From contig CAMFII010000004.1 of assembly GCA_945952585.1 (NCBI GenBank), positions 62,001 through 126,000 on the forward strand: a DNA stretch of 64,000 bases, given 5' to 3'. The DNA comes from an uncultured Rhodobacter sp. (GTDB lineage: Bacteria; Pseudomonadota; Alphaproteobacteria; Rhodobacterales; Rhodobacteraceae). The notes under the pieces are model-generated. The model was not told the origin of the DNA. It saw nothing but the letters and a program-made list of their open reading frames with translations, and searched no databases. A program made the translations under genes and the position numbers. Below, in pieces: positions 1 through 9,515 of this stretch. Positions within the stretch are counted from its first letter, which is position 1. The number at the start of each line of letters is the position of its first letter.

Positions 1-1330
1 GATGGTCGGCCAGCTTCGGCATGTCGCCAGCCGCCGCATCCTGCTCGATTGCCCCCGCCACGAGACTGATCGAGGAGAGCGGATTGAAGATCTCGTGCCC
101 GAGCCCGGCCGCCAGCAGTCCGAGTTCGGACAGGCGGTGTTCCTGGCCCAGATGCGCGGCGCGATCGAGGTCGCGGATCGACTCGACAACGCAGATGCGG
201 GGGGTCGCGCGACTGCCGAGGTTGACCGGCGCGGCCGCGACCTCGACATGCCGTTCATGCCCGGCACCGCCGAGATGCGTCTGCCGGCAAGTCATGGCCC
301 CGGCGCCGTCGCGTATTTCCTGCAGAGGGCAGCGGACCAGGGTCGCGGGGCAGGGGGTGTCACGGCGATGGCTGGACAGGTGGCAGGGCTGTCCCAGAAC
401 CCGGTCGAGCGGCACACCCACCAGCGCGGCATAGGCCGCATTCGCCTTCACGATCCGGAAGTCCGGGTCGATGACGCGGATCGCGTCAGGAATGGCGTCG
501 AGGACGGCTTGCAACCGGTCCTCGGAGGCGTGGAGGTCGGCCAGTGACTTGCCCAGCTCGTCGGCCATGGTGGCAAAGCTGCGGCCAAGCTCGGCGATCT
601 CGTCGTGACCGGACAGGTCCAGTTTCGTGTCGGTCGTGCCATCGCGAAACGACCGCACTGCCGCCGAAAGCCGCGTCAACGGCGACACCACCGTCTGGCG
701 GATCAACGAGAGCACGGCCGCGGAGGCGAGGAAGGTCACAAGCAGGCCAAGAACCGCCAGCCAGAGCGCCCCCCGCCGGGCATCGGCGGTGGCACTGCCT
801 TCCGAATAGTCGAGAACCAGAAGGCCGTTGACCGGGTGGTCCGCGATGCTGCCGTGACATTCGCCGCATTCCGGCCGGTTGTGCACCGCCTTGACCGAGC
901 GCAGCAGCCGTCGTCCGTCGGGGGTCTCGATCTCGGCGGCAAGCGAGCTGTCCGACTGCTGTGCCCTCTCGATCAAGGGGTCATCCAGATGCGTGCCGAT
1001 CGGCGCGCCCGTGTCGCCAAAGCGCACCTCGCCGGCGGGGCTCAGCACCATGACACGTTCGATTTCGGGGCTGGCTGCGATGTCGTCGAGGACAGCCCGG
1101 ATCCCGTCGAGGTCATGCTTCAGCATGGCGTTCTTCAGCGCCGCCTCTATCACCTCGTTGAACTGGCCGGTCGCGCGCACCTGTTCGGCTTGGATGCGGT
1201 GGAAATAGAGCGTGGTCACGATTGCCAGAACCGGCAGCGAGACGGCCACCAGAACGCCCGCCATCGTCGCAAGAACCCGGCGACCGAGGCTCGCGCCGAG
1301 CCATGCGCCAAGTCGGCCGTACGCAGTCAC
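1..1330 (-). CDS. Sensor histidine kinase with periplasmic haem c motif (C-terminus beyond window)
   Basis: The frame is open from a GTG at 1330 to the window edge, giving 443 visible residues. In order it shows a first membrane segment (about residues 19-43), a periplasmic region with a CxxCH haem c motif (CGECH, residues 155-159), a second membrane segment (about 183-205), a HAMP-like linker, a PAS domain (from AVLDAIPDAIRVIDPDFRI) and the start of the dimerisation/phosphoacceptor domain with the H-box GHEIFNPLSS. The ATPase domain lies outside the window. The GTG overlaps the upstream stop as GTGA, which supports this start and translational coupling to the ferredoxin gene. The PAS domain carries a Cys/His-rich stretch (PCHLSSHRRDTPC). 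Haem-c-bearing periplasmic sensor domains are known in other bacteria. Sensing redox state or a ligand for the reductase operon is an inference. The partner regulator is not in the window. Confidence 0.85.
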   Translation of the reverse strand, partial: MTAYGRLGAWLGASLGRRVLATMAGVLVAVSLPVLAIVTTLYFHRIQAEQVRATGQFNEVIEAALKNAMLKHDLDGIRAVLDDIAASPEIERVMVLSPAGEVRFGDTGAPIGTHLDDPLIERAQQSDSSLAAEIETPDGRRLLRSVKAVHNRPECGECHGSIADHPVNGLLVLDYSEGSATADARRGALWLAVLGLLVTFLASAAVLSLIRQTVVSPLTRLSAAVRSFRDGTTDTKLDLSGHDEIAELGRSFATMADELGKSLADLHASEDRLQAVLDAIPDAIRVIDPDFRIVKANAAYAALVGVPLDRVLGQPCHLSSHRRDTPCPATLVRCPLQEIRDGAGAMTCRQTHLGGAGHERHVEVAAAPVNLGSRATPRICVVESIRDLDRAAHLGQEHRLSELGLLAAGLGHEIFNPLSSISLVAGAIEQDAAAGDMPKLADH

Positions 1331-2337
1331 CTGAGCACCTGATGCAGCTTCCGGTAATGGGGTGCCCGAGCGCAGATCGGGCACAGCCCGTCATCGTCGC
1401 GCAGGGCGTCTGCCGGGCGCTGATAGGCCACGAGGCAGCCCCGGCATTGCCGGCTGACCAAAGTAATCCCGTCCGTCGCCGTGGCGAGCGTCACGATGCT
1501 GATCGCCTTTTCCTCGCAGGATTGGACGCAGAGACCGCAACCGGTGCACTGCGCCGCGTCGACTCGGTAGGTCACCGGTTGATCCTCGACAATGATCAGC
1601 GTCAAGGCCGCTTCAGGGCAGATGCGCAGGCACAGATGGCAGGCGGTGCAGCTCTGCGGGTCGAACACGGGGTTATGGGCGAAGCGCGGGGATGTCCCGC
1701 GGCCCGGCAGGCCCTGCAGGCGGGCCAGCGCGGTCTGGCGGCTCTTAGGGCCGGCGGCCTCCGGCCGCGCCGCGGAGAAGGCGAGCAGTCCCCGCCGCCG
1801 GGCATCGGGCCCCTGTCCCAGCCGGGGCAGATGATCGGCCCCGCGCGCCGGCAGCGGCCCTGCCGATATCAGCGGCAGCCCCCGGTCGGCAAGAAGCGCG
1901 TTCAGCGTTTCCAGATGCTGGATCAGCGGCAGCCCGCGCCCGCTTGGACAGGTGTCGCAGGAGGCGGTCTCGACCAGCAATCGGCGGACGCCGCGCAGCC
2001 ACAGGGCGGCAAGCCCCTCGAGCCCGAGCGCCTGCAGGCAGGGGCCAGTGCCGCGAACCAGCCGGACCTCGGGGCAGATCAGCACTACGGCGCCGCTGAC
2101 GTCGGTCTCGGTCAGGGGAAGCGGCACGGCGCGGTCGATCGTGATCGCGCGAACCGGACAGGTTGCGCCGCAGGCACCGCACGCGGTGCACAGATCGGCG
2201 ATCAGCTCCAGCCCGTCGTCACCCAGGCGCAGTGCGCCGGTCGGGCAGGCCCGCGCGCAAGCGTCGCAAGTGGCGCCCGCGGTCCGGTCCAGAAGGCAGA
2301 CAGTCTCGTCCAGCGCCGGCAGGGGCCTGGGTTTCAC
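1327..2337 (-). CDS. Multi-cluster ferredoxin-type 4Fe-4S protein
   Basis: This 336-residue protein has two pairs of ferredoxin-type clusters: CDACARACP and CTACGACGATCP near the N-terminus, and CTACHLCLRICP and CTGCGLCVQSC in the C-terminal half. Between them lies a domain with further cysteines (CDTCPSGRG). The end has two CxxC knuckles, CRGC and CPIC, like a rubredoxin or zinc-ribbon fold. No signal peptide is seen, so it is probably cytoplasmic. The chosen GTG start (VKPRPLP) overlaps the TorD-like stop as GTGA. Its position between chaperone and kinase suggests electron supply or a maturation role for the reductase. A NapF-like role is one analogy, but the arrangement does not match NapF exactly. 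Confidence 0.75.
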   Translation of the reverse strand: MKPRPLPALDETVCLLDRTAGATCDACARACPTGALRLGDDGLELIADLCTACGACGATCPVRAITIDRAVPLPLTETDVSGAVVLICPEVRLVRGTGPCLQALGLEGLAALWLRGVRRLLVETASCDTCPSGRGLPLIQHLETLNALLADRGLPLISAGPLPARGADHLPRLGQGPDARRRGLLAFSAARPEAAGPKSRQTALARLQGLPGRGTSPRFAHNPVFDPQSCTACHLCLRICPEAALTLIIVEDQPVTYRVDAAQCTGCGLCVQSCEEKAISIVTLATATDGITLVSRQCRGCLVAYQRPADALRDDDGLCPICARAPHYRKLHQVLR

Positions 2338-3071
2338 CAGCTTGGCTCCAGTCCCGGCACGAAGGGCCGCTCGATCTCGCGCGCTTCGGCCTCGCGTGCC
2401 GCCCTGTCCTGCGCGCGGGCATAGGCATTCGAGCGGATGTCCGGCGCAATGCCGGTCTCTGCTTCCAGCCAGTCGCGCAGCGCCGACAGGAATTCCGCCG
2501 TTATGGCCGCGACCGAAACGTGGAACGGGCTGCGCGCGCGTTCCACCGCCCTGGCGCAAAACTCGGGCGCCCAGCCCAGCACATGGAGGTCGAGGAACCG
2601 GGCCGCGTCCGTCAGCGCATCGGCTGTTCCCAAGGCCAGCAGGTGGCGCACGAATTGCAGCTCATGCACCAGATGGTCGTCCGAGCGGATGCGCCAGTCC
2701 GGCGCTTTCAGGTCATAATGCTGGTACCATTCCCGCACCTTGAACATCGGCTCCTGCCGCTCCAGGTGCTCGTCCGACATCCAGACCGAGCCGGTGGGCG
2801 CGATCCTGTAGCCGTTGGTCAGGTAGAGGTCGGCAAAGTCCGCCGCCATCTCGTCCAGTACCTTTTCCGTCGGATCCTTCCCAAGCTCGGCCAGCGCCGC
2901 GTCAAGGAAGGTGGCGGCCCCGTAACCCCGGCCGACAAGGATGGCGTCAAACAGCACCGGCGCCTCGATGGCGCGCAGATGCGAGATCAGCTCACGGTCC
3001 GCCTCGCGGTCGTGAAGCCGGATGACGAGACCCAGGATCTCGGCCCAGAGGGCGGCAGCGGTATCAGCCAT
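2334..3071 (-). CDS. TorD/DmsD-family molybdoenzyme chaperone
   Basis: This 245-residue, largely helical, acidic protein has no signal peptide and has the features of TorD/DmsD redox-enzyme maturation chaperones, including the ADFADLYL segment and the later DDHLVHELQF motif (family pattern D-H-x4-E). Such chaperones bind the Tat signal of a molybdoenzyme in the cytoplasm until the cofactor is in place. The natural client is the Tat-exported DmsA-like subunit encoded two genes upstream. Its start overlaps the DmsB-like gene by eight bases, so translation is probably coupled. The family call is firm. The client assignment is inferred from context. Confidence 0.85.
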   Translation of the reverse strand: MADTAAALWAEILGLVIRLHDREADRELISHLRAIEAPVLFDAILVGRGYGAATFLDAALAELGKDPTEKVLDEMAADFADLYLTNGYRIAPTGSVWMSDEHLERQEPMFKVREWYQHYDLKAPDWRIRSDDHLVHELQFVRHLLALGTADALTDAARFLDLHVLGWAPEFCARAVERARSPFHVSVAAITAEFLSALRDWLEAETGIAPDIRSNAYARAQDRAAREAEAREIERPFVPGLEPSW

Positions 3072-3735
3072 TGTCCATCCTGCCTTTCGAATGGGCCACG
3101 AAGACGATCGAGGGGTCGGTCAGCTCCGGATCGGCCATCGACTTGACCTGCCGCACGACACTGTCGTTCGGGCCGACGGCCTTCGTCTCGTAAGTGCCGT
3201 CGCGCAGTTCGTTGATCGGGCCGATGTCGAGGACGCGCATCATGCAGGCCGAGACGCAGTAAGGCTTTCGCCCCGCTTCCAACTCGTCGATGCACATGTT
3301 GCATTTCTGGACGATGTTCAGCTCGACGTTGAACTGCGGCGCGCCGAAGGGGCAGGCGGCCTCGCATTTGCGGCACCCGATGCAGAGCGTGGAGTCGATG
3401 TCGACCACGCCATTGTCCTTGCGCTTGAAGATCGCGCCTGTCGGGCAGGTCGGCAGGCAGGCCGGCTCGGCGCAATGGTTGCAGGACATGTTGATCTTGA
3501 AGGCGAACACCTCGGGATAGATCCCGCCCTCGACATATTGCACGCGCCGGAACCGCGGCCCCGGAGGCAGTCCGTTCTTGTCCTTGCAGGCGATCTCGCA
3601 GGCCCGGCAGCCGATGCAGTCCACGTTGTTGTGGACGAAGCCAAGCTGCATGTCGGGCACGACCGGAGTGTAGGTCTCGCGCTTCTTCTTCAGGATTGCC
3701 GCCTTGAGCGTCGGCTGGTCGGCCTTGTCGGTCAT
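3064..3735 (-). CDS. DmsB-like four-cluster iron-sulfur subunit
   Basis: This 223-residue protein carries the four Cys groups of the DmsB/PhsB/NrfC electron-transfer subunits: CIGCRACEIAC (about residue 42), CNHCAEPACLPTCP, CIGCRKCEAACP and CNMCIDELEAG with later CVSAC. It has no signal peptide of its own, so it probably crosses the membrane bound to the Tat-tagged catalytic subunit, as is usual in this family. The ATG at 3735 is preceded by a strong AAGGAGG. The gene follows the catalytic subunit by 21 bases. Electrons would pass from a cytochrome through this chain to the molybdenum site, or the reverse if the enzyme is an oxidase. Confidence 0.9.
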   Translation of the reverse strand: MTDKADQPTLKAAILKKKRETYTPVVPDMQLGFVHNNVDCIGCRACEIACKDKNGLPPGPRFRRVQYVEGGIYPEVFAFKINMSCNHCAEPACLPTCPTGAIFKRKDNGVVDIDSTLCIGCRKCEAACPFGAPQFNVELNIVQKCNMCIDELEAGRKPYCVSACMMRVLDIGPINELRDGTYETKAVGPNDSVVRQVKSMADPELTDPSIVFVAHSKGRMDNG

Positions 3736-3756: not shown

Positions 3757-6312
3757 TCACTGGTCGCGGCGGAAGATGTGGCTGCGCGCAGTTGCCAGCT
3801 GGTCCCAGCCAGGCCGGTGGTTCAGCTCGGTCTTCTTCACGTCCACGAGAAGGGTGTTGTAGGCGAAGGCGCCCGCCGGGCTGGGATTGTCCAGCGTCAG
3901 GAAGTCGGGGTTGCCCGAACGGTCCACGCCGTTCTCGTCGATGTCCATCCACGACCCTTCATGCAGGACGACCACGCCGGGCATGCAGCGTTCGGTCACA
4001 TAGACCGGCGTGATGACCTTGCCGCGTTCGTTCCAGATCTCGACCGTGTCGCCGGTCTGGAGGCCAAGCCGCTTGGCGTCCGAGGCGTTGATCGTGGTTT
4101 CCTGGCTGAAAGTTTCCCGCAGCCAGCCGATATTGTTGAAGATCGAGTGCGTCCGCCAGCGCGGATGCGGGGTGATCATGTGGAAGGGGAAGTCCTTGGT
4201 TTTCGGGTGGTTCAGGCTTTCCCATGGCTCGATCCATTTCGGGATCGCGGGGATGTATTCACCCCACCGGGTCAGGGTCCAGTCCTGCACCTGTGCCAGT
4301 TCGGTCGAGAAGATCTCGATCTTGCCGGATGACGTCTCGAACGGCTTTCCCTGCTCGATCTGTTCGCGGAAGGCGACATGCGGTTCGGGGAGGACGAACT
4401 TGTAGACGCCGTGGGCCTTGAATTCCTCCCAGCTCCAGGTGACGCCCTGGTTGAACTGGACCTTGCTCCACCAGTCAAACAGATAGGCCTCGTCCACCGC
4501 ATCGTTGTAGTCGAAATAACTGCGGTCGGCCTTCGGGTTGTAGGCAGGGCCGAAGCCAAGGCGATAGGCAAGTTCGGTGAAGATCTGGAAGTCGGTCTTG
4601 CTCTCGCCCAGGGGTTCGATGACCTTCGGGCGGTGGATGTAGTAATGCCCCTTGTACCAGGGGAGCGCGACGTCGTGCCGCTCGAAATGGGTGCAGCTGG
4701 GCAGCAGGTAGTCGGCCCAGATCCCCGTGGGCGTGATCGTCGCGTCAAGGCAGACGAGCAGGCTTTCGCTGTCGCCCTCGGCCTCGAGCTTGCGGATCGC
4801 CTCGATCTCCTTGTTGATGTTGGTCAGCTGGTTCAGCCAGTCCGACCCCTGCCAGAAGATGCCGCGGATGTTCGGGATCACCCCGTCAAGATTGTCGCTG
4901 CGCGGCCAGAGCCCGGCTTCGACCCGCGTCACGTTGGGGTAGTTCAGGACGATATGCGCCCAACGGTCCGACTTGATCGAGGCGTACCAGATGTTGGCGT
5001 TCTGGTCGTAGGGATAGGCCACCGATTCCGGGTGCCAGCCCTTGCCCACGCCCTCGGCGCAGCCGCCGAGCACGCCGATATTGCCGGTCATCGCCTGGAG
5101 CGCCGCCGCCATGCGGTTGTACTGCTCGCCGAAGGCCGCGCGGCCGGGGGCCCAGCTGGCCTTCAGCGCCGCGGGCTTGGTCGTGGCATACATGTCGGCG
5201 AGCTTGATGATGTCGGCCGCCGGAACGCCGCAGATCTCGCTGGCCCATTCGGGGGTCTTGGGCACGCCGTCCGACACGCCCAGGATGTAGTCCTTGAAGC
5301 TTTCCTGCCCCTTGGCCCAGTCGGGCATCGTGCCTGCATCCATGCCCTGCACGAAGCGGTCGATGAAGGCCTGGTCCTGCAGGCCCTTGTCGAAGATGTA
5401 ATAGGCCATCCCCGCCATCATCGCCGCGTCGGTGTTCGGCCTGATCGGGATCCACCAGGCGTCATAGGCGGCGGCGCTGTCGGTGTATTGCGGGTCGATG
5501 ACCACGAACTTGCAGCCGCGCTGCTTGGCCATGCGCAGGTAGTAGAAGGTGTTGCCGCCGTGGAAGGTGTAGGCCGGGTTCCAGCCCCACATGATCATCA
5601 GCTTGGTATGGGCGTAGGCGTCGTCCTCGTTGCCGTCCTGGATCGTCCCGAAGGTCCAGCGCGAGGACGAGGTCGTGCCCTGGTACGACGGCACCGACCA
5701 GCTGTTGGTGCGGCAGCCGAACATGCCCAGAAAGCGGGCCTGCAGGCCCTCGATCTGGTCGGACTTGTGCAGCACGCCGTAGGAGGCGCCGGCATAGGCC
5801 TGGTCCAGTAGCGCGGTCGGGCCATACTTGTCGCGCAGGTAGACCATGCGCTCCGAGATCTCGCTCAGCGCCTGATCCCAGGAGATGCGCTTGAACTTGC
5901 CCTCGCCGCGTTTGCCGACCCGCTTCATCGGGTAGAGCAGGCGCTCCGGCGAATAGAGGCGGACCCGATAGCTCCGCCCGCGCAGGCAGGCGCGCAGCTG
6001 CGGCTTCTCCTCGGTGTCGGTGCCGTAGGCATCGCCCTGGTAGGTGCCGTTGTCGGTCGACAGGCGGACGATCACGTCACCCTTCTTGTGCGCGACCAGC
6101 ATGTGGCGCGAGCCGCAGTTGTGGGCACAGGAGGTGACGACGGTCGTCAGATCGTCGTCGCGCGGATAGGGCTCGTAGGCGAAGGCCTGCGCCGGGGTGG
6201 CGCGGCCCCCGATCAGGGCCGTCGCCGTGGTTGCCGCCGTGGCCTGCAGGAAGGCCCGCCGGGTCGGGGTCAGCAGCGCGGCAAGGCGCGTCAGGTCCGG
6301 TTTTCCGATCAT
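3757..6312 (-). CDS. DMSO-reductase-family molybdopterin catalytic subunit (DmsA-like), Tat-exported
   Basis: This 851-residue protein starts at the ATG at 6312, behind AGAAGGAA, and opens with a twin-arginine signal (TPTRRAFLQ, residues 16-23). It resembles DmsA over long stretches, for example ACLRGRSYRVRLYSPERL, YPMKRVGKRGEGKFKRISW, VVIDPQYTDSAAAYDAWW and IRPNTDAAMMAG. The N-terminal cluster motif is unusual: Cys62-x3-Cys66-x3-His70, with the last Cys at 109, where DmsA has a third Cys. A Ser/Thr-rich stretch (SVPSYQGTTSSSRW) lies where the family's molybdenum-ligating Ser occurs. The product is expected in the periplasm. The neighbours give no DmsC-type quinol anchor, so the upstream cytochrome probably exchanges electrons with it. 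Substrate is unknown; DMSO, methionine sulfoxide or an oxyanion are candidates. Confidence 0.88.
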   Translation of the reverse strand: MIGKPDLTRLAALLTPTRRAFLQATAATTATALIGGRATPAQAFAYEPYPRDDDLTTVVTSCAHNCGSRHMLVAHKKGDVIVRLSTDNGTYQGDAYGTDTEEKPQLRACLRGRSYRVRLYSPERLLYPMKRVGKRGEGKFKRISWDQALSEISERMVYLRDKYGPTALLDQAYAGASYGVLHKSDQIEGLQARFLGMFGCRTNSWSVPSYQGTTSSSRWTFGTIQDGNEDDAYAHTKLMIMWGWNPAYTFHGGNTFYYLRMAKQRGCKFVVIDPQYTDSAAAYDAWWIPIRPNTDAAMMAGMAYYIFDKGLQDQAFIDRFVQGMDAGTMPDWAKGQESFKDYILGVSDGVPKTPEWASEICGVPAADIIKLADMYATTKPAALKASWAPGRAAFGEQYNRMAAALQAMTGNIGVLGGCAEGVGKGWHPESVAYPYDQNANIWYASIKSDRWAHIVLNYPNVTRVEAGLWPRSDNLDGVIPNIRGIFWQGSDWLNQLTNINKEIEAIRKLEAEGDSESLLVCLDATITPTGIWADYLLPSCTHFERHDVALPWYKGHYYIHRPKVIEPLGESKTDFQIFTELAYRLGFGPAYNPKADRSYFDYNDAVDEAYLFDWWSKVQFNQGVTWSWEEFKAHGVYKFVLPEPHVAFREQIEQGKPFETSSGKIEIFSTELAQVQDWTLTRWGEYIPAIPKWIEPWESLNHPKTKDFPFHMITPHPRWRTHSIFNNIGWLRETFSQETTINASDAKRLGLQTGDTVEIWNERGKVITPVYVTERCMPGVVVLHEGSWMDIDENGVDRSGNPDFLTLDNPSPAGAFAYNTLLVDVKKTELNHRPGWDQLATARSHIFRRDQ

Positions 6313-6326
6313 GGCTCGTTTCCTTC

Positions 6327-7865
6327 TCAGGGCTTCGTCGGCAGCTGGTATTCGGGTTTGGACTCGGTCGGCCGGTCCTTTGCCCAGTCGGGCACCGTCT
6401 CGGTGTCCATCATCGGCCAGGGGTGCCGCGGGTAGGGGTAGGAGATGCGGTACCAGGCGCGACCGCCGTGGCAGCCGTAGCAGACGTCCGAGGTATCGGC
6501 GCGGGCCGCTTCCTCGATGGTCTTGGCGTTCAGGTAGGTCACCGCGTGGCGATTGGTGCGCACGGTTTCCGCATGGCACGTCAGGCAGCCGTTCGGGGCC
6601 TCTGGGGATTCCATGTCGGCGCGGAGGTCGGGCCACTTGCCTTCCAGGCCCATGTTCTGCGCCGGGAACTGGCCGTGGCACAGCAGGCAGGTCTCGGACG
6701 GGTTCACCATCTTGCGGGCAGTGAATTCTGTCGCCGGGTTCACCGGGTCGGTCTTGCCGTTCGCGAGCCAGGGGGTCTCGTCCCGTGGGTCGTTGCCTTT
6801 GTGGCAGAACACGCATTGCAGATTCATCACCTTCTTGGCGTAGTCGCTTTCCATGTGCCGCCAGTGGAAATCGGCCTGGTCCTGCGCATAGGTATCGAGC
6901 GTCTGATACCAGGCGAGGCTGTCGGCCGCCTTCACCCCGGCGATCGATTCCGCGCGGACCTTGTGGTCGAGGATCTCGGCATGGCAGGCCAGGCATTCCT
7001 CGTTCGAGGCGGTCGCGATCTGCGGCTGGAAGTGGATCGGGTGATAGCGGGCGCGCTGGTAGTCGAGCGTCGGGATTTCCTTGCGCAGCGCATCGAGCCG
7101 CGCGCCGATCGCGGCCACTTCGTCGGCGCTCGGCGCCGGCGGGTTCTGGTAGGTCACACCTTCGGGATAGGGGACCGGATCGAGCGTGACGACGGCGTCA
7201 TCGGCGAGGTCCGGGAACAGCGTTCCGGGCTGTGCCTCTGCGGCAGGGGCTGCAGCTTTGGCCGAGCTCTCGGTTGCCGGTGCCGTGGTCGCCGCGTCGG
7301 CGGTCGTTCCGGCGGCGGCCGGAAGCGGAGCGGGCGTATCACTCTGCTGGCTGAGCCAGGCGATCAGGGCGGCGCGGTCCTCGGCCTTCTTCACGCCGGC
7401 AAAGGCCATCTTGGTGCCTGGAATGAAATCCTTGGGGCCGCTCAGGAAACTGTCGAGGGACGCGGCATCCCAGGGCTGTCCCGCCCGGGCCTTCATCCCG
7501 TCCGAATAGGCAAATCCTTCAATCGAGGCCGCAGGCCGCCCGATGACGGACCACAGGTTTGGTCCGGTCGCGTTTTTGCCGCCCTTGTCAGCAGTGTGAC
7601 AGGCCTTGCAGGCCTTGAAAACCTTCTCGCCCGCGGCAAGGTCGGCGGTCGCGCCCGTTGCAGGGGCGCCACCGGAGGAGGAACCTGCCGAAGCGCCGCC
7701 AGCGGACGTGGCCGTCGCCTCAGGGGCAGGCGGAACATAGGCGTTGGCCGTGTCGCCGACGCCTCCGAAATAGAATTGGTTTGCGCCAATGGTCAGTGCG
7801 GCGAAAAAGGTCCCTGCAACAGCGGTGGCACCGGCAAAACGCAGGATGTGGTCGAGACGCTTCAT
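6327..7865 (-). CDS. Membrane-anchored fused mono-haem plus penta-haem cytochrome c
   Basis: This 512-residue protein has an uncleaved-looking N-terminal membrane segment (about residues 9-32), an Ala/Pro/Ser/Thr-rich linker, a class I cytochrome c domain with CKACH (86-90) and a likely axial Met153 (GTKMAF), a second Ala/Thr linker (about 180-210), and a C-terminal domain with five CxxCH sites at 291, 351, 393, 427 and 462. That gives six predicted covalent haems in the periplasm. The first part resembles anchored cytochrome c-y type carriers. The second resembles multihaem reductase partners. It ends 14 bases before the molybdoenzyme start. Its likely job is to connect the bc1/cytochrome pool to the DmsAB-like enzyme in place of a DmsC subunit, which is inferred. 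Confidence 0.85.
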   Translation of the reverse strand: MKRLDHILRFAGATAVAGTFFAALTIGANQFYFGGVGDTANAYVPPAPEATATSAGGASAGSSSGGAPATGATADLAAGEKVFKACKACHTADKGGKNATGPNLWSVIGRPAASIEGFAYSDGMKARAGQPWDAASLDSFLSGPKDFIPGTKMAFAGVKKAEDRAALIAWLSQQSDTPAPLPAAAGTTADAATTAPATESSAKAAAPAAEAQPGTLFPDLADDAVVTLDPVPYPEGVTYQNPPAPSADEVAAIGARLDALRKEIPTLDYQRARYHPIHFQPQIATASNEECLACHAEILDHKVRAESIAGVKAADSLAWYQTLDTYAQDQADFHWRHMESDYAKKVMNLQCVFCHKGNDPRDETPWLANGKTDPVNPATEFTARKMVNPSETCLLCHGQFPAQNMGLEGKWPDLRADMESPEAPNGCLTCHAETVRTNRHAVTYLNAKTIEEAARADTSDVCYGCHGGRAWYRISYPYPRHPWPMMDTETVPDWAKDRPTESKPEYQLPTKP

Positions 7866-7885
7866 CTGCGGCTCCTGAAATTGGC

Positions 7886-7919
7886 AAAAAGGGGGGCCGC
7901 TGGACTGCGGCGGCCCCCG
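7886..7919 (-). terminator. Strong hairpin with T-run between the small proteins and the cytochrome gene
   Basis: On the minus strand a GC-rich stem (GGGGGCCGC paired with GCGGCCCCC) is followed by TTTTT, a classical intrinsic terminator. It lies inside a run of co-directional genes, so it probably lowers transcription of the cytochrome and reductase genes relative to the small proteins upstream. A separate promoter downstream of it was not recognised. Confidence 0.75.
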
Positions 7920-7928
7920 AGTAACGGC

Positions 7929-8234
7929 TCAGTTGCTACCGGTCGGTCCGTTCGCCGCTGAGCCGGAAGTGCAGGTCCACTTGGCGCCGTCCCAGCTGTA
8001 CTGGACGCAGGCCGGAGCCTGGTCCGCCGGGGTCAGTTCGACCACGCCCGTGGTGCCGGTCGCGGCGGTTCCGTTTCCGGCCGATGTGGTCTGCCCCGCG
8101 GACGGGGCGGGCGCCTCGGTTGCCTGGTCAGGGGCGGGTGCCGGGGCTTCCGGGGACTGGCCAAGGAACAGGTAAGCTCCAAGGGCAACCGCGATGGCGC
8201 CGACGACCAGGCTAAGGGACGACTTTGTGTTCAT
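7929..8234 (-). CDS. Small membrane-anchored protein with CxQYSW motif
   Basis: This 101-residue protein has an N-terminal hydrophobic segment (SLVVGAIAVALGAYLFLG), then a low-complexity Pro/Ala/Thr/Gly stretch, and a C-terminal module with two cysteines: ACVQYSWDGAKW followed by TCTSGS. The CVQYSW core is close to the CTQYSW core repeated twice in the Met-rich protein encoded just upstream, so the two are probably partners or share a ligand. The ATG at 8234 follows GAGAGA. The predicted topology puts the module in the periplasm. I do not recognise the family. Both Cys could form a disulfide or bind metal or haem, but nothing here settles that. Confidence 0.75.
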   Translation of the reverse strand: MNTKSSLSLVVGAIAVALGAYLFLGQSPEAPAPAPDQATEAPAPSAGQTTSAGNGTAATGTTGVVELTPADQAPACVQYSWDGAKWTCTSGSAANGPTGSN

Positions 8235-8300: not shown

Positions 8301-9026
8301 TCAGTTGGAGGGAGGAGTCCAGGATCCCGACATTCCCGACATGCCGCCCATACCGGACATGCCACCCATGCCCGACATGCCGCCCATGCCACTCATGCCG
8401 CCCATACCGGACATGCCGCTCATACCCGACATTCCCGCCTGAGCACCCGGAGCCCAGCTGTACTGGGTGCAGACCCAGCCAGCGCCGCCGTTGCCGCTCA
8501 TCCCGGACATGCCACCCATGCCCGACATGCCACCCATGCCGCTCATCCCGGACATACCGCCCATGCCCGACATGCCACCCATGCCGCTCATCCCGGACAT
8601 ACCGCCCATGCCCGACATGCCACCCATGCCGCTCATCCCGGACATGCCACCCATGCCCGACATGCCACCCATGCCGCTCATTCCGGACATGCCGCCCATG
8701 CCCGACATGCCGCCCATGCCGCTCATTCCGGACATACCGCCCATGCCCGACATGCCGCTCATACCCGACATGCCCGCCTGAGCGCCCGGAGCCCAGCTGT
8801 ACTGGGTGCAGACCCAACCGGCGCCGCCGTTGCCGCTCATGCCCGACATGCCGTCCATTCCGGACATGCCGCCCATGCCCGACATCCCGGACATGCCACC
8901 CATCCCGGACATGCCGCCCATGCCGGACATGCCACCCATGCCTGACATGCTGTCAGCGGAAGCCGCCGAGGCGACCGCGCCGGCGCAGATCAGCGCCGCA
9001 ACAGCGGCCTTGATCGATTTGGTCAT
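8301..9026 (-). CDS. Exported Met/Gly/Ser repeat protein with two CTQYSW modules
   Basis: The 241-residue product begins with a signal peptide (MTKSIKAAVAALICAGAVAS, then AASA). I chose the ATG at 9026 rather than 9032 because GAGGAG sits at a normal distance from it. The mature part is almost wholly MSGMGG and MSG repeats, in three blocks separated by two identical modules containing AGWVCTQYSWAPGAQAG. By hand count about 57 of 241 residues are Met. The Cys in each module is the only Cys in the mature chain. The protein should be periplasmic or outside the cell. It is encoded in the reductase gene cluster. Met-rich chains can bind Cu(I)/Ag(I) or act as sacrificial Met against hypochlorite-like oxidants, as proposed for the MrpX protein of a perchlorate reducer. 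Which applies here is open. No family was recognised. Confidence 0.8.
   Translation of the reverse strand: MTKSIKAAVAALICAGAVASAASADSMSGMGGMSGMGGMSGMGGMSGMSGMGGMSGMDGMSGMSGNGGAGWVCTQYSWAPGAQAGMSGMSGMSGMGGMSGMSGMGGMSGMGGMSGMSGMGGMSGMGGMSGMSGMGGMSGMGGMSGMSGMGGMSGMGGMSGMSGMGGMSGMGGMSGMSGNGGAGWVCTQYSWAPGAQAGMSGMSGMSGMGGMSGMGGMSGMGGMSGMGGMSGMSGSWTPPSN
8492..8783 (-). repeat. Near-identical 45-base tandem repeats inside the Met-rich gene
   Basis: The central block between the two CTQYSW modules consists of about five to six copies of a 45-base unit encoding five triplets of MSG or MGG type. The copies differ at a few third-codon positions and are otherwise identical, which points to recent expansion by slippage or recombination. 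Related shorter blocks flank it at about 8301-8445 and 8833-8950. Confidence 0.85.
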
Positions 9027-9123: not shown

Positions 9124-9426
9124 TCATTCGCCCTGGTGCCAGTTGCGGATGTCGTAGGGGGCGTGCATCCCCGGATGAATGAACGGGGTGAACCAGTTGC
9201 CCTGGTCCTCGAGGAACCTCAGGCTGGCCGGAAACGGCGCGGCGATGCCGGTCAGCGCCCGCAGGTACCAACCCTCGGGCTTCACCACTTCGGTGACCAC
9301 CGGCGCGTCGGGCCGTTTCCATGGGGTGGTTCCGGCGATGAACGCAGGCTCGGCCGCAACGGTCGCTACCGACAGGCAATAAAAGACCACCCCGCCGAAG
9401 CAGGCTTTCGAAGCTCGCATTTGCAT
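9124..9426 (-). CDS. Small secreted protein, family not recognised
   Basis: This 100-residue protein starts at an ATG (MQMRASKACFGG) placed eight bases after GGGAG; a GTG three codons upstream lies too close to that site. A signal peptide (CFGGVVFYCLSVATVAAE) probably ends near residue 25. The mature chain of about 75 residues is rich in Trp, Pro and aromatic residues, with PFPASLRFLEDQGNWFTPF and a His-containing end (RNWHQGE). It has no Cys after the signal. It is the first gene of the presumed reductase operon, so a periplasmic accessory role is likely, but no function can be assigned. Confidence 0.65.
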   Translation of the reverse strand: MQMRASKACFGGVVFYCLSVATVAAEPAFIAGTTPWKRPDAPVVTEVVKPEGWYLRALTGIAAPFPASLRFLEDQGNWFTPFIHPGMHAPYDIRNWHQGE

Positions 9427-9515
9427 CCAACTCACTCCCGTCGAGGACCGTCCAACCGAATCCTCTTACGTTGCCCGGACCATAGCCCCATGCCCGGAAC
9501 AAGTTCCAAAGAATT

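Follow-up and report, generated by a model that had tools for sequence, protein, structure and literature searches.

We identified an exported methionine-rich repeat protein that is encoded together with a distinct clade of DmsA-like molybdoenzymes. The window, our term for the whole stretch of 64,000 nucleotides of Rhodobacter DNA that was analyzed, contains both genes, and the repeat protein was present at every locus we examined. This association suggests, at the level of gene content, that the repeat protein is a dedicated partner of the DmsA-like enzyme. Among the functions we weighed, we tentatively place first that of a methionine reservoir that is exported, mostly disordered, and dedicated to the neighboring DmsAB-type enzyme. 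It ranks ahead of a scaffold, a soft-metal binder, and a partner of another reaction, in that order. The genes of the cluster, which we call an operon from gene order and strand, are listed here in their order along the minus strand.

9124..9435, minus strand: s103, a small exported protein of 103 aa with a conserved domain of about 70 residues (start codon uncertain)
8301..9026, minus strand: Met-X-Gly triplet repeat protein of 241 aa, with a signal peptide, 56 triplets, two Cys modules (GWVCTQYSWAPGAQAG), and the C-terminal sequence WTPPSN
7929..8234, minus strand: s101, a protein of 101 aa with an N-terminal hydrophobic segment, a Pro/Ala linker, and a C-terminal CVQYSWDGAKWTCTS that resembles the repeat-protein modules
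6327..7865, minus strand: hexaheme cytochrome c with an N-terminal hydrophobic segment, a c550-like domain, and a pentaheme part
3757..6312, minus strand: DmsA-like molybdoenzyme with a twin-arginine signal, Ser at the Mo-ligand position, and the Fe-S motif C-x3-C-x3-H
3064..3735, minus strand: DmsB-like 4Fe-4S electron-transfer subunit
2334..3071, minus strand: TorD/DmsD-type chaperone
1327..2559, minus strand: polyferredoxin-like protein
1..1384, minus strand: 5' part of a HAMP/PAS histidine kinase with CxxCH in its N-terminal sensor part; the remainder lies past the left edge of the window
L069 9462-11384, minus strand: the histidine kinase
L069 8137-9465, minus strand: NtrC-type response regulator, past the left edge of the window

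The true start of the polyferredoxin-like protein probably lies further in, with most relatives aligning from residue 65 or beyond. A plasmid of Rhodobacter xanthinilyticus has the same gene order without s101, and the annotation calls its repeat protein hypothetical. Next to the two-component genes lie two exported proteins that look related and belong to no Pfam family (L069 6543-7313, minus strand, and 7523-8083, plus strand); they had no tblastn match in the other operon loci searched.

The original prediction of an exported Met/Gly repeat gene was right in its coordinates. The gene is read from 9026 to 8301 on the minus strand, from an ATG preceded by a purine-rich AGAGGAGAGA stretch, and its 241 residues comprise a signal peptide followed by Met-X-Gly repeats. 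Methionine, put at about a quarter of the protein, makes up 23.7% of residues. The two modules described as identical are so: AGWVCTQYSWAPGAQAG is present twice, without a difference between the copies. The 56 triplets form three runs (residues 27-65, 86-178, and 199-234). The placement upstream of the DmsAB genes also holds in gene order, with the 101-aa protein and the hexaheme cytochrome intervening.

Open reading frames of 262 and 232 aa cross the repeat on the opposite strand. Tandem Repeats Finder scored the repeat-gene DNA at 481 for a 90-base period and at 474 for a 45-base period. Five successive 45-base copies differ at four sites, all of them third codon positions. The five copies code for one peptide in the minus-strand frame and for two to four different peptides in each other frame. 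Because all variation between the copies is synonymous in the minus-strand frame, we conclude that this frame is coding, and we rejected both opposite-strand frames.

The repeat protein, s101, and s103 of the window matched no Pfam or NCBIfam family above its curated cut-off, and a search of the window's genome with the repeat protein gave no second match at E up to 0.001. We rejected a collagen-like protein or adhesin, as the window protein scores 23.5 bits against the Pfam collagen cut-off of 27.2. The first of two relatives in genome G476, taken whole, does exceed this cut-off (78.1), because Gly occupies every third residue. AlphaFold2 modeled the repeat protein with a mean pLDDT of 39.5 and weak hairpins at the modules, all at very low confidence, and modeled s103 from three sequences at 43.6; both models are too poor for a fold search. 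The hydrophobic stretch of the signal peptide contains a Cys in six of seven readable family proteins (those of the window, G010, G214, G003, G023, and the plasmid), the second copy in G114 having none there. By the lipobox rule we judged a lipoprotein signal at this Cys unlikely, the preceding residue being Ile, Leu, or Met.

We compared the repeats among relatives to see what selection keeps. Met was retained in 736 and Gly in 733 of 737 triplets from 15 sequences, a strictness that is somewhat overstated, since these blocks are bounded by perfect runs and were chosen by pattern. The X position takes 15 different residues; a stricter count of 730 triplets gave Ser 343, Gly 211, Tyr 43, Pro 31, Asp 22, Asn 22, Arg 18, and Ala 17, the seven remaining residues being rarer. 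Both counts omit G119 (a fragment), G761 (a run of N), and L032 (a disrupted frame). Among 11 full or nearly full sequences, the number of triplets ranges from 20 to 86. Exactly two Cys follow the signal peptide in eight of these 11, all of them within modules of the CTQ, CVQ, or CTS type; such modules are missing from the G214 protein and from the two G476 proteins. A variable X and a triplet number of 20 to 86 are what we would expect if the quantity of methionine, and not one exact structure, matters.

Two Met-rich proteins were observed in G476 (L103 13590-15567). They carry MYGM, MPGM, and MRGM repeats, one of them contains 29% Met, and both are encoded upstream of s103; another small protein lies between s103 and the cytochrome in this genome. 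A Met-Gly chain was also observed on an enzyme. Genome G023 encodes a PQQ-domain dehydrogenase, which we take to be XoxF-like, with a long MSGM/MGGM C-terminal tail (L104 1664-3820). This MSG tail is absent from the best match in each of the seven other genomes of its genus that gave one, with a single additional genome giving none; the survey covered best matches, and two of the genomes also have a second match at 50% identity. The tail thus looks, from these alignments, like a species-level oddity.

We tested the predicted co-occurrence of the repeat protein and the reductase in other genomes, and it was borne out. A Met-X-Gly protein was found at each of the 17 loci that we examined, which come from 15 genomes and a plasmid, counting loci in which the repeat gene is split over two contig ends (G119), cut by a contig end (the first copy in G114, L033, L035, and G774), disrupted in frame (L032), or partly N (G761). 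G114 contains two copies of the operon and has kept a repeat protein in each; the contig of the second copy ends within dmsA. In a scan of 295 genomes of the family, an orthologue of the cytochrome (a match at E below 1e-100 reaching the pentaheme part) was found in eight, and the repeat protein (E below 1e-11) in those same eight. The DmsA gene was confirmed to adjoin the cytochrome gene in all eight. At E up to 1e-30, 38 genomes had cytochrome matches, and in 30 of these the alignment is confined to residues 7-258, the region around the c550-like domain. Among 385 genomes of the class, the DmsA clade (at least 75% identity) was present in three, the window's own genome counted, and the repeat protein in the same three. 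Among 299 genomes of the phylum, the clade was present in five and the repeat protein in the same five, one of which (G774) lies outside the class of the window. The Fisher values for the family, class, and phylum (7.7e-16, 1.1e-7, and 5.2e-11) come from overlapping samples of genomes that share ancestry, and so they show only that chance is not the cause.

Weaker matches to the repeat were inspected and rejected. These include 10 of the 18 family genomes with repeat matches at E up to 1e-5, which have other repeats at the best place, and 11 of the 16 phylum genomes with repeat matches, which have other repeats such as GLS and GVA. Both extra matches in the class scan (G409 and G511) fell in SG-type and NPV-type repeat DNA, G511 being judged from the locus and not from the exact frame. 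A weak match in G049 is a simple, Met-rich Met-Arg-Ala repeat, and one in G182 is a Met-rich insert in an apparent multicopper oxidase, an enzyme name read from the sequence.

Other parts of the operon are less constant. The ferredoxin was undetected in G476, G761, and G774, and the TorD and two-component genes were undetected in G774; in G023 the regulator was detected and the kinase was not. The contig of L032 (CP059262.1) is titled Exiguobacterium profundum, a Gram-positive bacterium, yet it encodes a DmsA with 92% and a DmsB with 94% identity to the window proteins; it is probably a mislabelled assembly.

The DmsA-like enzymes of these operons form a clade of their own. Identity of the window DmsA to three clade members is 82, 78, and 74%, and to the DmsA proteins of E. 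coli, Rhodovastum, and Azospirillum it is 37, 36, and 37%; identity within the clade is 72% or more. Its score against TIGR02166 is 629.1 bits, below the family cut-off of 777.7. Ser occupies the Mo-ligand position, as assigned from alignments, in 17 of 17 clade sequences. The twin Arg of the signal is present in all four aligned members, and the pattern [TS]RR-x-F[LV] was found in six-frame translations of 14 of the 17 loci. The Fe-S motif at residues 62-70 of the window protein (3757-6312, minus strand) is CAHNCGSRH. C-x3-C-x3-H is conserved in all 17 sequences, whereas E. coli has C-x3-C-x3-C, so that the third Cys is replaced by His. We infer that this conserved His may serve as an Fe-S ligand in the clade. 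The SYGW motif, which has been tied to sulfoxide reduction in DorA (PMC7402097), is not kept in the window DmsA, which has AYAG there; the aligned E. coli enzyme is also without it.

DmsC is missing from the annotated plasmid operon, and in the window there is no room for a gene between DmsB and TorD. Three plasmid DmsABC loci do carry DmsC. Instead of DmsC, the operon has a multiheme cytochrome. Six in-frame CxxCH motifs were counted in the cytochrome from the window and in those from R. xanthinilyticus, G003, G010, and G023, and those of G481, G761, and G774, which align to the pentaheme part only, contain five.

Two small proteins accompany the repeat protein. We found s103 in all 13 loci with sequence upstream of the repeat gene to examine. 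Its domain, with 20 invariant columns among the 13 aligned loci, follows the pattern ..RP..AP..W..AL.G..P.P.SL.FL...G.W..F..PGM..PYDIR.WH, and the s103 profile had no match among PDB sequences at E up to 1. s101, which is probably membrane-anchored, was detected by motif in five of 17 loci. Its C-terminus follows the pattern C-x-x-Y...W-x-C-[TS]. The s101 of G114 bears a Met-X-Gly stretch of its own. We infer pairing between the two modules of the repeat protein, much as might occur between the halves of the s101 motif.

We searched for signs of how the operon is controlled. One CxxCH motif is present in the N-terminal sensor part of all 14 histidine kinases read, in the context N-x3-C-x2-CHG-x5-P-[VI]-N. 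GAFTGA was found in one of six response regulators checked (G761), and no sigma-54-like site was found in the 13 regions upstream of s103. FNR-like sites occur in three of these 13 regions (L071, L103, and L117), the best of them with one mismatch (L103), against a background of 16 sites with up to two mismatches in the window alone. We rejected sigma-54 and FNR sites upstream of s103. The operon looks redox-regulated.

The methionine reservoir is the model we tentatively prefer. The repeat protein has a signal peptide by sequence, its triplets are under protein-level constraint, and it is associated with the DmsA clade in every sample scanned. In this model, periplasmic oxidants would turn the methionines of the repeat protein into sulfoxides, and the DmsAB enzyme, supplied via the multiheme cytochrome, would re-reduce them. 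The Cys modules and s101 would keep the reservoir close to the enzyme, and the heme-motif sensor kinase would adjust expression to the redox state. Coupling of Met oxidation to re-reduction by the DmsAB enzyme is plausible by analogy, because DorA of Rhodobacter sphaeroides and BisA of Campylobacter concisus, both DMSO-reductase-type enzymes, reduce protein-bound methionine sulfoxide (PMC7402097, PMC10653797), and E. coli DmsABC reduces methionine sulfoxide and its dmsA is induced by hypochlorite (PMC12096835). These precedents count for the reservoir, as do the co-occurrence in the scans, the retention of a repeat protein by each copy in G114, the near-invariance of Met and Gly, and the Ser in 17 of 17 enzymes.

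Several observations count against the reservoir. Of 12 operon genomes searched for MsrP, 11 have it with a score exceeding the family cut-off (the window's own genome encodes it on another contig, C3), which would provide periplasmic repair of methionine sulfoxide independently of the DmsAB enzyme. The setting also differs from that of MrpX: a search of 12 operon genomes for chlorite dismutase found none, and the annotated plasmid copy showed no ECF/anti-sigma pair. The lack of chlorite dismutase also led us to reject a (per)chlorate reduction island. Strict triplet spacing, paired Cys modules, and a W-x-PP tail exceed the needs of a bare sink. Finally, given its low identity to named DmsA proteins, the enzyme may have another substrate, and electron flow through DmsAB and the cytochrome could run the opposite way; nor is SYGW kept, although the aligned E. 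coli enzyme is without it too.

The next-ranked explanation, which we regard as doubtful, is that the repeat protein is a scaffold or tether. A flexible Met-Gly chain, closed by the two Cys modules, would assemble DmsAB and the cytochrome with the small proteins at the membrane, and Met would contribute hydrophobic, sticky flexibility as in the GroEL tails. The features of s101 fit this role, with its hydrophobic N-terminal segment, its terminal Cys/aromatic module of the same kind, and its Met-X-Gly stretch in G114. So do the strictness of the triplets and the two mature-part Cys in eight of 11 proteins, and Gly-Met-rich tails with a conserved role have been reported in GroEL (PMC11978752). 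Against this role, s101 was detected by motif in only five of the 17 loci, the G214 protein and both G476 proteins are without Cys modules, and the AlphaFold2 model offers only weak hairpins at these positions.

A binder of Cu(I), Ag(I), or another soft metal, which would buffer metal for the respiratory enzyme or away from it, is less likely still. MxxM spacing runs throughout the protein and is typical of thioether copper sites, and the sole partly similar Met-Gly motifs in a family genome without the operon are those of the apparent multicopper-oxidase insert in G182. Set against this are the scarcity of His (0 to 2) and acidic residues (0 to 10) in the repeat proteins, the acceptance of Arg, Tyr, Pro, and Trp at X in G476, and a conserved operon in which no copper gene was recognized.

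We consider it improbable that the DmsA clade has a different oxyanion or organic oxide as its substrate, or that it is a dehydrogenase donating electrons to cytochrome c, with the repeat protein capturing or coating the product, though the separateness of the clade, the multiheme cytochrome in place of DmsC, and the matches of DmsA to related YnfE models, which are selenate/tellurate reductases, would accord with it.

The reservoir model has a bolder form, to which we give little credence. Met-X-Gly chains, held by their Cys modules and anchored by s101, would form a redox-responsive periplasmic gel or condensate that stores oxidizing equivalents as sulfoxide, loosens on oxidation, and is reset by the attached DmsAB and cytochrome. 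The cell would then respire the sulfoxides of its own secreted protein.

If the coupling proposed in the reservoir model is true, the DmsA clade as a whole would have protein-bound methionine sulfoxide as its natural substrate, and an enzyme family with debated substrates would gain a physiological role. The operon would also represent a second methionine-cycling shield beside MrpX/YedYZ, made of unrelated parts. Even if the coupling is false, the operon-tied Met-X-Gly family, the s103 domain, and the His-bearing Fe-S motif of DmsA form a well-defined, testable set.

We compared the operon to known systems. GroEL is a cytoplasmic chaperonin, and its Gly-Met-rich tail is short. We know of no Fe-S subunit for DorA or BisA. 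The repeat protein shares its Gly-Met-rich character with a segment of the GroEL C-terminal tails (PMC11978752). The Met-rich low-complexity domain of yeast Pbp1 (ataxin-2) is reported to be disordered, with assembly controlled by its oxidation state and reset by Msr; Pbp1 is a cytoplasmic eukaryotic protein, and the accessible text of that source names no molybdenum enzyme for it (PMC8394241). The window DmsA differs from DorA and BisA in having an Fe-S motif and DmsB, and the accessible portions of the two sources describe no dedicated Met-rich protein for either enzyme (PMC7402097, PMC10653797). Like E. coli DmsABC, the window encodes a TIGR02166-type enzyme with DmsB; unlike it, the operon has a cytochrome in place of DmsC, and its DmsA has 37% identity, His for the third Fe-S Cys, and a score below the family cut-off.

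The closest parallels are MrpX with YedYZ (MsrPQ) in Azospira suillum, for which periplasmic methionine cycling against hypochlorite has been reported, and BcrXQP of Brucella melitensis; both combine a Met-rich peptide with a putative molybdenum methionine sulfoxide reductase (PMC4623255, PMC8315932). In view of the cycling already reported in Azospira, the original prediction of a new kind of cycle was too strong. As in those systems, an exported Met-rich repeat protein is encoded beside a periplasmic molybdenum enzyme, here as predicted from sequence, and cycling is proposed. As far as the accessible text of these sources describes them, MrpX and BcrXQP involve a repeat (named MXKDX for the Brucella protein), a YedY-type enzyme, and ECF sigma control, whereas the window has Met-X-Gly triplets with Cys modules, a DmsA-family enzyme, a multiheme cytochrome, and two-component genes. 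We found no earlier description of the operon or the repeat in the open-licence literature, subscription papers being outside the scope of the search. The principle of a Met-rich protein cycled by a molybdenum enzyme is already known. New within the literature searched are the Met-X-Gly rule, the DmsA clade, and their setting of cytochrome and two-component genes, which together define a repeat family that accompanies a distinct DmsA clade, one that carries His in its Fe-S motif and is without DmsC.
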